From a bacterium (lineage in GTDB: Bacteria > B130-G9): DNA of 5,031 bases. The notes below the pieces were generated by a model. It made no database searches. It was not told the origin of the DNA and worked only from the letters and a program-made list of their open reading frames with translations. The translations under genes and the position numbers were made by a program. The first letter of the stretch is position 1. Each line of letters begins with the position of its first letter. Location: contig JAGHCW010000206.1 in assembly GCA_021160245.1 (NCBI GenBank), positions 1-5,031 of the forward strand. Reading direction: 5' to 3'. Shown here in pieces: positions 1 to 5,031 of this stretch.

Positions 1-82
1 CTTTGGGGGGAGCGTAATTTTAAGGGCAGCCTCGTCCTTGCAGGGCAACGAGGCTGCCCTTAAAATTACGCTCCCCCCAAAG
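1..82. repeat. Perfect 35-bp inverted repeat (fold-back palindrome) at the window edge
   Basis: Bases 1-35 are the exact reverse complement of bases 48-82, with a 12-base centre at 36-47. I checked all 35 pairs and found no mismatch. The right arm is ordinary coding sequence of the glycosyltransferase (residues 221-232), so the left arm is a mirrored copy of it, and the mirror reaches base 1. It supplies the TAA (20-22) that ends the ORF. A real terminator would not consist of an inverted copy of conserved coding sequence. A fold-back chimera from amplification, library preparation or assembly at a contig end is the likeliest cause; a genuine inverted duplication is possible but less likely. 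Confidence 0.95.
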
Positions 83-742
83 GTGCTCCATCGCCGACAG
101 CAGCGTGTCGATGCCCTTGCGTGGCTCAATCGTGCCAATATGCAAGACGTATGGCTCATCCGTTGGCAGTTGGCGGCTGGCGGTTGGCGGTTGCGGGTTG
201 CGGAAGAATCGCTCCTCAACGCCCTGATGGATGACGGAGATTCTCTCAGGTGGAATCGAGAACGCCCTTCTTGTGCCCTCAGCAGTGGCTTCCGAGACGG
301 CGATAACGTGGTCCGCCTTGTGAATGACCCTCGGCAGGACGCGAAAATAATACTGCCCCCCCGTCTTGTGCGTGCGCTCGGGATGCTCCAGAAAAAAGAG
401 ATCGTGGATTGTCGTGACGCTCTTGCCTGCTCGTTGAGGCGCGACGTTGTTGTTTGGCGAATGGAAGATGTCCACCGACCCGATAGCCGCCTCAACATTT
501 GGCCAGCGAAGATGCTCCCAAAGCCACAAAACCGCACGGCCGGGCCATCTCTTATGCACAACACTTACGTTCGGATACTCAGCAAACCAATCCCCTGGCG
601 GCGTATCCTTATACGAAAACGTAAAGACCACGAGCTCAACCTCAGGCGCATTCCGAGCCAGCGACTCAATCAGGCACTTTATATACCGCCCGATCCCCGT
701 AGGCTGCTTGAGCATCGCCGAACCATCAATCCCGATTCTCAT
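20..742 (-). CDS. GT4-family (GT-B fold) glycosyltransferase, 3'-truncated at a fold-back
   Basis: This predicted cytoplasmic glycosyltransferase would transfer a sugar from a nucleotide-sugar donor, probably in polysaccharide or lipopolysaccharide synthesis; the sugar and acceptor cannot be told. The ORF encodes 240 residues against roughly 350-400 for the family. The N-terminal domain starts MRIGIDGSA with PTGIGRY at 14-20, typical of GT4 mannosyltransferase-like proteins. IHDL lies at 112-115 and HKADHVIAVSEAT at 141-153. A short linker (about 181-194) leads to the C-terminal domain, where GTIEPRKG (203-210) carries the donor-binding Arg208/Lys209. The family's E-x7-E motif and the rest of that domain are missing. 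Residues from about 233 to the stop come from the loop and mirrored arm of the palindrome at 1-82, so genuine coding sequence probably ends near base 48 and the stop is artificial. The ATG at 742 overlaps the comEC stop (ATGA), with a good Shine-Dalgarno just upstream. Family assignment is firm; substrate is unknown. Confidence 0.9.
   Translation of the reverse strand: MRIGIDGSAMLKQPTGIGRYIKCLIESLARNAPEVELVVFTFSYKDTPPGDWFAEYPNVSVVHKRWPGRAVLWLWEHLRWPNVEAAIGSVDIFHSPNNNVAPQRAGKSVTTIHDLFFLEHPERTHKTGGQYYFRVLPRVIHKADHVIAVSEATAEGTRRAFSIPPERISVIHQGVEERFFRNPQPPTASRQLPTDEPYVLHIGTIEPRKGIDTLLSAMEHLWGERNFKGSLVALQGRGCP
162..203. repeat. Six-unit heptanucleotide tandem repeat inside the glycosyltransferase gene
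   Basis: Six consecutive 7-base units start at 162, 169, 176, 183, 190 and 197. On the plus strand units 2 and 4 are GTTGGCG, unit 1 is GTTGGCA, unit 3 is GCTGGCG, and units 5 and 6 are both GTTGCGG. The 42 bases make 14 codons, so the array stays in frame even though the unit is not a multiple of three. It encodes most of the Pro/Gln/Arg-rich stretch RNPQPPTASRQLP (about residues 181-193), in the linker between the two GT-B domains, where length changes should be tolerated. Confidence 0.85.
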
Positions 743-3240
743 CGCTCTCCCTTTTCACCCTCAGCAAAGGGCGCTATCACACGCCAATCGCGTCCATTGG
801 ACTCCACTATAACGCAATGGAGTTCGTTCGTCATATAGACCTTGAACGCGTCGATCGTGTATGGAAAAGCCCGGGGCTTGTCTTTCTTCAAAATAGCGGG
901 GCCGATGCCCGAGGCGATGATTGCCGATGGCGACACGAGCTCCAAGAAGGCCCGCTCTTCGGGCAGAATGTCCTTCTGATGCTTGCCCTCCGAGCTCGAC
1001 CACCCTCTTACGGGAATCACGAGCACTGTGCTCTTCAGCGAGGCGCCGTGCTCGGTAAGCAGCAACTGCGCAAGTGGCCCCGCCTCGCTCAAGAAAAGGA
1101 TGGAGAAGTCCTCAAACTCCAACTTGAAGACGAGTGATCTCTCACAAGGCCGTCTGATCTGAAGCCGTGTTTCGTCGGGAAATTTGTCGCCAATATGGCT
1201 GATCGGAACCGACAGCCGCTTTGCCCAATCCATCAGTTTTCGGAATTTGCGGCTCTCGCTCTTAGAATCCCCGATCATAAGTTGCCCAATCTCAAGCCGG
1301 CCCAGGGCTTTGGACCCGGCCTCCGAGAAAAGGTCGAGAAGACCATCGATGTGCTCGCCCGATGGGTTGGTCAAAACCGCGTAATCAATCCGATCTATGC
1401 CCCGTCTCCGCAAGTACGGCACAATGACGTTCTTGCCTGCGCCGGTGTCCGAGTAACGCGAGCCACCCCCGTCAACAAGCACGGTCTTACCACCCGGCGC
1501 CTCGATAACACAGCAGAATCCCCGGCCCACGTCGAGAAAAGCCGCCCGAAGCTCCCCATCTGGGCTCCATCTGGCGCCAATAACGACCGAGGCAATGAGA
1601 AGGCCAATCGACAGTATCGCCGCCTTTCTTAGGCGAGTTCGCATCCTCTCATTTTCCTCATCAGCTCCCCATTCCTGATTTTTTAGCCTTAATACAAGGG
1701 CAGAAACAAGAAGCAAAGAGACAAAGAACATCAGACAGGTGAAGAGACCTGGCGTTGGGACGATCAAGGAGGAATAGGGCGCCTTGTCGATGACGTCCAT
1801 GGTGGCCTGCATTACCCAAGTTACCCAATCGGCAAGTGACAAGAGAACCGATGAGACCCACGCGTTGATCAAAAAAACGAAGAGCGAGAAAAATAGAAGA
1901 TTCACAAGAACCATTGCCGTTGGGATAACCAGCACATTAGCGATAACTGCAATGAGGCTTACACGGCCAAACCAATACGCACAGATAGGCGCCGTGGCAA
2001 GCGTCGCGGCCGCCGATGCGACCGCCAGCCCAATTACATAGCGCTGTATCCGGCGCTGCTCCAAGTATCTTCTTCTGGCAGAGAGATACCGTATAGCTTC
2101 TGAGACGGCGATTACGGCGGCAAACGATAGCTGGAAGCCCGCCTCAAAGAGAGAACCTGGCATCCACAATAGGATAGCTATCGCGGCGAGCGCTATGATG
2201 TTCATGGTCTCTCTATGGCGATCGAAGGCCATCGCTATTAGATAGGCGCAGACCATGATCACCGCCCGAATAGTCGAGTGCCTCGGGCCCGCGATTAAAG
2301 CGTAAGCAAGAACCGGCACTATCGTCACGAGGCAGATCACTCGCCGGCCAGAAGCGCCCCGCGCAAGAATGCCCAGATGCAGCAGCAATTCACGAAACAC
2401 TCGGTAAAAAAAGAATGCCACGAAGCCGATGTGAAGCCCCGAGATAGCGATTATGTGGGCAATCCCAAGCCGTTGAAGCTGATCGCGATGGTCCGATGTG
2501 ATCCCCGTCCTGTCTCCAAGCACAAGCGCCGCCATGATCGGCGACCTCCCAGGATTACAGGTCTCATCCAGCAGCCCCTTGAACCCCCGCCTCACCCCGA
2601 GCAACACGTTGACCGCGCCCGACCAGAGACCGCCGTCGTTGCCGAGGCGCGTAAGGTTCGCCTCGGAGCAATATGCCAGCCGCAGAACGCCTCGTCTCTG
2701 CCAATACTCGCGAGCGTCGAAACCACCCGGATTGCGCCGCGAGTTCGGCCTTTTAATTCTCGCCTTGGCCTCAATGAGCTCGCCATGTTTCAGATCGCTA
2801 ATCGGCCACAACTTCTCGCGGTCTGCCCTTATTGTGAGCATCATGCTGTAGCCTATCGACCAGGTCTGTCCCTCGTATTCGACCATGCAATCATTCAGTT
2901 TGACCTTCGTCTTGCCCGCAAAGGTCACGGGAAAACCTGTGATTTCGCCGCGGACCTTGGCTTTGTCCAGCCAATCTGGCAGGGGGTCTGCGGGCATCTG
3001 CAAGCTGTAATTGAACCATCCAAGACCGAGAATCGCGATCGCGGCCCAAAGAAATGCTCTGCAGAGAGAGCGGTGGCGCCTGAGCATTACCGCCGCAATG
3101 CCGACCATCAATAGACCCGTCAGGATAGCGATGGCTGGATGCAAAGCAACATAGCGCCCAACCCAAATGCCCACGCAGAGCGCAATCGCCGGCGCGACAA
3201 GCGGCGATCTCTCCAGGAACTGACCCATCCCCGTCCTCAT
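739..3240 (-). CDS. comEC: ComEC/Rec2-family DNA internalization channel protein with degenerate metallo-beta-lactamase domain
   Basis: ComEC forms the inner-membrane channel that brings single-stranded DNA into the cytoplasm during natural transformation. At 833 residues it is full length. Order of parts: about three N-terminal membrane helices (12-77); a soluble OB-like DUF4131 region (about 85-215); the Competence core with ALVLGDRTGI (238-247), LGIAHIIAISGLHIGF (258-273), RHSTIRAVIM (320-329) and FEAGFQLSFAA (365-375); further helices to about 556; then a C-terminal metallo-beta-lactamase-like domain (about 564-815). That last domain keeps LDVGRG (569-574), VLVDGGG (587-593) and PYLRRRGIDRIDYAVLT (608-624), but the ligand motifs are replaced: NPSGEH (625-630), LSEA (717-720), PVRGW (743-747). 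Nuclease activity is therefore doubtful, while the channel core looks intact. Cys118 and Cys191 flank the OB-like region and might form a disulfide, as reported for Bacillus ComEC (inference). An alternative start, Met5 (base 3228), has AGGA five bases upstream, a better ribosome site than that of the first ATG. Transformation in this organism cannot be shown from one gene. Confidence 0.95.
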   Translation of the reverse strand: MRTGMGQFLERSPLVAPAIALCVGIWVGRYVALHPAIAILTGLLMVGIAAVMLRRHRSLCRAFLWAAIAILGLGWFNYSLQMPADPLPDWLDKAKVRGEITGFPVTFAGKTKVKLNDCMVEYEGQTWSIGYSMMLTIRADREKLWPISDLKHGELIEAKARIKRPNSRRNPGGFDAREYWQRRGVLRLAYCSEANLTRLGNDGGLWSGAVNVLLGVRRGFKGLLDETCNPGRSPIMAALVLGDRTGITSDHRDQLQRLGIAHIIAISGLHIGFVAFFFYRVFRELLLHLGILARGASGRRVICLVTIVPVLAYALIAGPRHSTIRAVIMVCAYLIAMAFDRHRETMNIIALAAIAILLWMPGSLFEAGFQLSFAAVIAVSEAIRYLSARRRYLEQRRIQRYVIGLAVASAAATLATAPICAYWFGRVSLIAVIANVLVIPTAMVLVNLLFFSLFVFLINAWVSSVLLSLADWVTWVMQATMDVIDKAPYSSLIVPTPGLFTCLMFFVSLLLVSALVLRLKNQEWGADEENERMRTRLRKAAILSIGLLIASVVIGARWSPDGELRAAFLDVGRGFCCVIEAPGGKTVLVDGGGSRYSDTGAGKNVIVPYLRRRGIDRIDYAVLTNPSGEHIDGLLDLFSEAGSKALGRLEIGQLMIGDSKSESRKFRKLMDWAKRLSVPISHIGDKFPDETRLQIRRPCERSLVFKLEFEDFSILFLSEAGPLAQLLLTEHGASLKSTVLVIPVRGWSSSEGKHQKDILPEERAFLELVSPSAIIASGIGPAILKKDKPRAFPYTIDAFKVYMTNELHCVIVESNGRDWRVIAPFAEGEKGER
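745..752 (-). promoter_or_regulatory. Shine-Dalgarno site for the glycosyltransferase, inside comEC 3' end
   Basis: Read on the minus strand, AGGGAGAG lies two bases before the ATG at 742, with its GGGAG core six bases (747 to 743 excluded core, spacer AGCG) upstream in good position. It falls within the last codons of comEC, and the ATG overlaps the comEC TGA as ATGA (739-742). Together they support this start codon and translational coupling of the two genes. Confidence 0.7.
3234..3237 (-). promoter_or_regulatory. Possible Shine-Dalgarno for an alternative comEC start at Met5
   Basis: On the minus strand AGGA lies five bases before the second in-frame ATG (3226-3228). The first ATG (3238-3240) has only the sequence CTGCGGACTGA before it, with no clear purine-rich site. 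The protein may therefore start at Met5 (MGQFLERSPL), which still keeps the whole first membrane helix. Confidence 0.4.
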
Positions 3241-3486: not shown

Positions 3487-5031
3487 TCAATGCCCGCGGG
3501 GAAGCAGTTCAAACTGCCGTCCCTGCCGCTTTGTGCCTTTGGCCTCGTCGAAGCAAAGGAATTTGCCTATGCGACCGGGCTGGGCCCAGTTGCACGATCC
3601 ACCCGTTCGATGCGACTCAAGCCAGAACTGGATGCCAGAATCACGTAATCGCGAGGCAATTCTCTCCGCCTGAGGCCTTTCTTGAAAAGGCATAAATGCT
3701 TGGAGCGCGTTGTTTGGTTGCCAGAGACCAAATTCACAAGAGGAGAAAATCCGAGGCTCGAATGTAGATCGGCCATAGGCTTCCCAGACGACCTTGTATG
3801 GTGCAAATGAGTATCGCCCAACACCCAATAGCGCCCACCAAAACGCTCTGCCGATCCAGGAGTTGATCATGACTCCCTTCCGGCGCGTCAACAGATCTTT
3901 CATGGAAAGGAGATAATTCCAAGCATCGGGCATACGCTGCAAATCATCTTGATGCAGAGGCCTACCGGTTGTTGGATCAGGCGGCACGAATATGAAGCGA
4001 CTAGCAGATGATTCGCTGTTTTGAAATTGCTCATGTGAAATGAGGGGAAATACGAGTTGTTTGGGTAACCGGACGCCTCTTGTGTGTTGGTTTGCTAGAA
4101 TGAGCGTATGGGGCTCTTCCTCTTCGATCCTATCGAAGATATAGACTCTATTTGCCCCGCATGTATTTATCCCCTGCCTGGGTTTCGAGGACTTCGGAAC
4201 TGATATGCGAGGGATCGGCGACCGGCCGGTGTGTTCAGAATAATGGGCGTGAATGGTCCATGAATCCGTCGAATCCCGAAGTGGAAGCGCAGAATAGCGC
4301 TCCCATGTGTTTTCCTTAGCACGGACATAATAAGGAACTGGAAACCTTTGCTTCTTGTTGCGTTCAAAGGCGCAAAAGCAATAGCTCGTGGATACATTTT
4401 CAAATATCTTCTCCCGGCCGAAATCGAATACCTGACAAATACGAAAATCCACCTGGTTGACCTCATAGGTTCTGAATTGCTCGTGAGCACCATCGTTGAG
4501 GAGCAAAGATAACGGCATGAAAAATAACGCTTTTCCGCCTTCTGCAAGGTGCTCCTGAATGCACCTGCTGATTATTAGAGCAGCAATATCTACGCGAGAA
4601 TTCCCCAGAATTATTGGCCGCGTTGCTCCCACAAGGCCGTATTTTCTAAACAGTGGCTTGAGCTTCTCCTTATATAATTCCGGGAGTTCGGTGAAGTTCA
4701 TCCAAGGTGGGTTGCCAATGACAATGTCTGCCCGTATTGTTCCGCGCCAAAACAAATAGTCAGCAGATATGAAGTTCTCACTGGGGAATGTGATCCCATA
4801 GCGGAGCTTCATTCCGGAGAGGAACTGCTGCACAAAGCGCATTTCGACCTCAACGCCATACAGCCTGCGAATCATGCTATCCGTGACCTCGACGCCGTTA
4901 TCTACGGCGGATGCCACTAGAGCCTGAAGAAAATTTCCGGTGCCAGCTGTGGGATCGAATACAACCGCGCCATCGCGCCAAGCCTGCAACAGATGGTACT
5001 TGGCAATAACCCACTTACACCATTTGAAAGG
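3487..5031 (-). CDS. N6-adenine DNA methyltransferase (Eco57I/type IIG-like), 5'-partial
   Basis: This protein should methylate the N6 of adenine in a specific DNA sequence using S-adenosylmethionine, as part of a restriction-modification or defence system or as a solitary enzyme. The frame is open to the window edge: a further 14 codons (PFKWCKWVIAKYHL) precede the in-frame TTG at 4989, so that TTG is internal and the true start lies outside. Numbering from the edge, 514 residues are visible. Motif I is FDPTAGTGNF at 25-34 (AdoMet binding), an acidic GVEVE follows at 59-63, and catalytic motif IV is NPPW at 107-110, diagnostic of N6-adenine enzymes. A glycine-rich EGGKALFFMP segment is at 164-173. 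The C-terminal half, from PRQGINTCGAN (284-294), resembles the target-recognition region of Eco57I-like methylases. No nuclease motif is visible, and any N-terminal domain is out of view. It looks too short for a BREX PglX unless much is missing. The TGA stop is at 3487-3489. Sampled G+C is about 48%, lower than comEC, which fits horizontal acquisition. Confidence 0.9.
   Translation of the reverse strand, partial: PFKWCKWVIAKYHLLQAWRDGAVVFDPTAGTGNFLQALVASAVDNGVEVTDSMIRRLYGVEVEMRFVQQFLSGMKLRYGITFPSENFISADYLFWRGTIRADIVIGNPPWMNFTELPELYKEKLKPLFRKYGLVGATRPIILGNSRVDIAALIISRCIQEHLAEGGKALFFMPLSLLLNDGAHEQFRTYEVNQVDFRICQVFDFGREKIFENVSTSYCFCAFERNKKQRFPVPYYVRAKENTWERYSALPLRDSTDSWTIHAHYSEHTGRSPIPRISVPKSSKPRQGINTCGANRVYIFDRIEEEEPHTLILANQHTRGVRLPKQLVFPLISHEQFQNSESSASRFIFVPPDPTTGRPLHQDDLQRMPDAWNYLLSMKDLLTRRKGVMINSWIGRAFWWALLGVGRYSFAPYKVVWEAYGRSTFEPRIFSSCEFGLWQPNNALQAFMPFQERPQAERIASRLRDSGIQFWLESHRTGGSCNWAQPGRIGKFLCFDEAKGTKRQGRQFELLPRGH

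Follow-up and report, generated by a model that had tools for sequence, protein, structure and literature searches.

A Candidatus Coatesbacteria ComEC with a conserved metallo-β-lactamase-like domain that has lost most of its metal ligands

The window analysed here is the entire 5,031-bp contig (C102) of a Candidatus Coatesbacteria genome bin, and it carries a comEC gene on the minus strand (positions 739–3240). The open reading frame call and Pfam matches to DUF4131, Competence and Lactamase_B divide the 833-residue product into an OB fold, a competence channel and a pseudo-metallo-β-lactamase (MBL) C-terminal domain (CTD); as a preliminary description of this DNA had stated, the frame is open throughout. 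Upstream of comEC, a partial type II/IIG restriction-modification methyltransferase-like gene on the same strand (3487–5031) runs off the contig. Downstream, a GT4 glycosyltransferase gene overlaps comEC by 4 nt and is cut by the contig end; an inverted repeat at window positions 1–82, with perfect 35-nt arms 12 nt apart, breaks this truncated gene at the contig start and looks like a fold-back assembly artefact. The GT4 gene directly follows comEC in the three Coatesbacteria genomes other than G002, where a PtuA/PtuB (Septu) defence pair sits between the two genes (L033, 6855–8782).

The N-terminal part of the protein has the DUF4131/OB region of ComEC/Rec2 channels (residues 34–195; 2656–3141, minus strand; 81.9 bits against a cut-off of 31.6), with modelled strands that match SSB/OB proteins weakly. 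It is followed by the Competence channel domain (PF03772; residues 239–515; 1696–2526, minus strand), matched at about 202–206 bits. The score of 201.8 bits for the window protein, against a cut-off of 23, identifies a ComEC/Rec2 channel domain and bears out the earlier remark that the channel core is intact. This ComEC is the sole PF03772 match in its genome, that is, a single copy. It scores 173.8 bits against the NCBIfam equivalog TIGR00361 (ComEC_Rec2), below the cut-off of 190.05, and that match stops at residue 634, the point at which the catalytic domain departs; the channel-domain assignment is independent of this score. The remaining MBL-like CTD, a pseudo-nuclease (residues 559–833; 742–1566, minus strand), is delimited by a structural model, a fold match to 9ic4 and a CTD profile score of 118 bits. 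Lactamase_B reaches 21.7 bits on the full-length protein, under its cut-off of 22.7, and 24.4 bits, just over it, when the CTD is scanned alone.

Ligand positions were taken by phmmer alignment from 9ic4, the MBL (BLACT) domain of Moorella glycerini ComEC, and alignments were the sole basis for judging the geometry of the metal site. The relevant residues of 9ic4 are HPDADH at 598–603, D700, H725/H726 and S728; Ala in place of H598, D602, H603 or D700 removes nearly all activity from the Moorella domain, and D600A lowers it about 5-fold (PMC12455585). All four motifs quoted in the preliminary description, LDVGRGF, NPSGEH, LSEA and PVRGW, are present in the CTD at the expected aligned sites. 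Motif II reads NPSGEH for HxDxDH (residues 625–630; 1351–1368, minus strand), with H598N, D600S and D602E, and with H603 kept as H630. In motif IV, LSEAG (residues 717–721; 1078–1092, minus strand), the bridging D700 has become Glu, and PVRGW stands for PHHGS (residues 743–747; 1000–1014, minus strand), with H725V, H726R and S728W, the last removing the substrate-contact Ser. The motif-III Asn is lost as well. The window therefore has N/S/E/H, no motif-III Asn, E and V/R where Moorella has H/D/D/H, N, D and H/H, and a metal-capable residue is left at no more than 2–3 of the 8 metal-ligand positions. LDVGRGF replaces LDVGQGD (residues 569–575; 1516–1536, minus strand), the second Asp being lost to Phe and the first kept as D570. 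The description had counted this motif among the metal-binding ones; the loss of its second Asp stands, but the first Asp is not an active-site residue, since the corresponding D541A is a neutral control in Moorella (PMC12455585).

Loop 2, the ‘pin’ loop that usually reads NRFGHP, has likewise given way to a basic stretch, IGPAILKKDKPRAF, which does not have the Arg-Phe pattern (865–906, minus strand). This loop guides the degraded strand, and Legionella carrying a double Phe mutation in it no longer transforms (PMC12455585). The replacement is found in all four Coatesbacteria with a net charge of +2 to +5, compared with a mean of +0.5 (sd 1.8) in 87 intact CTDs; the net charge of the entire CTD is not a consistent feature.

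The Coatesbacteria sample comprises four genomes (G000–G003) from one family, all of them metagenome bins, and the same ligand loss occurs in each, with NPxxE[HR] at motif II and PHHGS absent. In the three relatives, motif II is N-(H/R)-E-R, with Arg at the position of H603; they keep Asp at the D700 position and have lost both PHHGS His residues. In all four, the second Asp of LDVGQGD is Phe, and N625 and E629 are invariant. Neither the window protein nor its relatives have the combination of HxDxDH, bridging Asp and PHHGS that marks the catalytic ComEC MBL nuclease. The proposal that the substitutions are fixed in the clade is thus upheld, and a search for relatives with intact motifs finds none among these four genomes. 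The description of the domain as stripped of its ligands is right for most of them but too strong as a statement of total loss, given H630 in the window copy and the acidic residue at the D700 position (Glu here, Asp in the relatives).

The window CTD is 45–51% identical to those of its relatives and so is as conserved as the whole protein, although its last 60 residues are less conserved. In G003, comEC is a mosaic: up to about residue 300, each 40-residue window of its channel half resembles G002 more than G001 (75% versus 53% in one example), and from about residue 380 its identity to G001 is ~80–88%, dropping again in the last 60 residues. Because the identity pattern switches there, recombination between lineages seems to have joined the two halves of the gene close to the domain border, and the CTD appears to persist alongside different channels. 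Both the CTD and the downstream GT4 gene of G003 are like those of G001 (L034, 1–1929, in G003; L032, 3549–6257, in G001; L033, 3998–6829, in G002).

The ligand positions bear on whether the CTD remains a metal enzyme of altered activity, its site rearranged around Asn625, Glu629, Asp/Glu719 and other residues. The invariant N625 and E629 and the Asp or Glu kept at 719 would suit such a site, as would similar Asn/Glu swaps in Streptococcus pneumoniae, whose effect is debated; a single metal ion could still be coordinated by E629 and D/E719, which counts against inactivity. We nevertheless consider this reading unlikely, given the Arg at the H603 position in three of the four genomes and the disappearance of H725/H726, the motif-III Asn and S728. 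The four CTDs contain 2–6 His each, compared with a mean of 9.6 in intact CTDs. A check for other His or Asp residues filling the metal site, suggested in the preliminary description, finds none: across the four CTDs there are no conserved replacement ligands, and the sole invariant His, H808, lies near the C-terminus.

By prediction, the domain has kept its fold. An AlphaFold model of the CTD (12 sequences; pLDDT 79, pTM 0.83) has the αβ/βα fold of MBL proteins and aligns to 9ic4 over 237 residues with VIA-align (Z 27.3, rmsd 2.2 Å), in line with the earlier claim; further matches are to the pneumococcal phosphorylcholine esterase (Z 21) and then to RNase J and tRNase Z (Z ~15). Selection on the domain can be read as dN/dS only for the pair G001–G003, the other pairs being saturated. 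For this pair, the CTD gives 0.19 (YN00) or 0.29 (NG86; bootstrap 0.20–0.43), with 37, 26 and 79 differences at codon positions 1, 2 and 3, and the neighbouring GT4 gene gives 0.19–0.22. In the one measurable pair, the CTD with lost ligands is under purifying selection, as had been proposed in preference to recent decay.

A decaying remnant, with the C-terminus drifting in a phylum whose ComEC no longer serves transformation, is in our estimate slightly less probable still than a rearranged enzyme. Ligand positions do vary (H/R, S/H/R, V/E), the sequence of loop 2 is scrambled and conservation is lower over the last 60 residues, but the comEC frame is open in all four genomes, dN/dS of about 0.2–0.3 resembles that of the neighbouring gene, the fold is retained and Coatesbacteria root-to-tip lengths in a channel-domain tree are only modestly above the median. 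In addition, Coatesbacteria encode DprA, PilT-type ATPases and an anchored helix-hairpin-helix protein resembling ComEA, and this gene content makes a transformation or uptake pathway plausible. An assembly or sequencing artefact or mis-binning, which the apparent fold-back at the contig end and the origin of the genomes as metagenome bins could suggest, is refuted by the sequences of the relatives, in which the same substitutions recur across four bins, the two matched to public records coming from different isolates. Because the retained fold, the clade-wide ligand loss, the open frame and dN/dS of 0.19–0.29 come together, we favour a conserved pseudo-nuclease over decay or sequencing error.

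To place this loss among other bacteria, a profile of intact CTDs was run on the ComECs of about 110 diverse genomes, with 60 bits or more taken as a clear CTD. Among 97 CTD-bearing ComECs from outside Coatesbacteria, 87 retain the full set of five core ligands, 2 have a change at one of them and 8 have three or fewer left (L071, L072, L077, L078, L080, L086, which is borderline, L141 and L028). Set against the 87 of 97, loss in four of four Coatesbacteria is more than chance. The degenerate share of 8% is a rough figure, because the sample was partly picked by similarity to the query. Weaker CTD remnants in L082, L094, L105 and L131 suggest further degenerate cases. On the tree of channel domains, Coatesbacteria form a clade (support 1.0) placed with the intact ComECs L006–L008, L021 and L092, and the other degenerate ComECs lie elsewhere, in at least four places. 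The preliminary description had mentioned neither this recurrence nor the pneumococcal precedent considered below.

Pseudo-MBL subunits of the RNase J2 and CPSF100 type offer an analogy, since they retain the MBL fold in a structural or regulatory capacity alongside an active partner, although they belong to different families and no such partner subunit is evident for Coatesbacteria ComEC. With the ComEC nucleases of Moorella glycerini, Moorella thermoacetica and Bacillus subtilis (9ic4), the Coatesbacteria protein shares the domain order, fold, flanking strands and PYLRxRGI segment, but not the catalytic ligands, S728 or loop 2. A closer precedent is S. pneumoniae, whose ComEC has an MBL domain with substituted metal ligands, for which a guide role has been suggested, and in which EndA degrades the non-transforming strand (PMC8579336, PMC5031224); the authors are cautious on the effect of the ligand changes (PMC8579336). 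As in the pneumococcus, the Coatesbacteria lineage conserves a full-length MBL-like CTD with His-to-Asn and Asp-to-Glu changes in motif II and ligands lost elsewhere. It differs in being distant, in having also lost PHHGS and the pin loop, in having D/E rather than Asn at the bridging position and in having no separate EndA-type nuclease in the families searched, with no PF01223 match in G000–G002 and no PF13930 match in any of the four genomes. Coatesbacteria thus add a new and independent case to the pneumococcal-type pseudo-nuclease ComECs, one in which the loss goes further and EndA is missing; because EndA is absent and other nucleases are possible, the likeness holds at the level of ComEC only. 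In the literature searched, judged by titles and abstracts, we found no paper on ComEC in Coatesbacteria.

Two other candidate nucleases emerged from an inventory of chosen families in the Coatesbacteria genomes. A staphylococcal-type thermonuclease (SNase), anchored in the membrane at its N-terminus and with SNase motifs that look intact, is present in three of the four (L150, 859–1398, in G000; L149, 1246–1818, in G001; L148, 1–648, in G003). The two most complete genomes encode a secreted, free-standing ComEC-type MBL of 300 residues with intact THPHPDH, GD and GHHGA motifs (L035, 3094–4002, minus strand; L036, 3460–4434, plus strand), adjoining a gene for a large multi-pass membrane protein in both. 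Neither gene is linked to comEC. Free-standing ComEC-type MBLs are only slightly commoner in genomes with a degenerate CTD (5 of 15) than in those with an intact one (4 of 35), numbers too few to claim enrichment, and this counts against the model of a substitute nuclease. That another nuclease must degrade the strand, one of two alternatives in the preliminary description, goes further than these results, with EndA-type nucleases absent and the two candidates having no demonstrated link to ComEC.

Taken as a whole, this ComEC probably has a conserved pseudo-nuclease CTD with a structural or guide role, the strand being removed by a separate nuclease or displaced. Judged from its residues, the CTD would not cut DNA. 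It may be retained through packing on the OB fold and channel, forming an extracytoplasmic mouth that would hold or steer incoming DNA, a role that the basic replacement loop would fit. The non-transported strand would then be removed by a separate extracytoplasmic nuclease, as by EndA in S. pneumoniae, a part perhaps played here by the anchored SNase or the secreted ComEC-type MBL; alternatively, it may be displaced without being cut. How the non-transforming strand is removed without a working ComEC MBL nuclease is a stated open question (PMC8579336).

We extend this model only tentatively to the other lineages, where, as in Coatesbacteria, the MBL domain might act as a non-cutting DNA guide, with the other strand displaced or cut by a nuclease of another family and degradation and transport repeatedly uncoupled. 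If so, strand degradation and transport would have been separated several times in evolution. The folded, selected and ligand-poor CTDs of one phylum and of other lineages are natural separation-of-function variants, which allow one to ask whether the CTD also guides DNA and which nuclease stands in for it.
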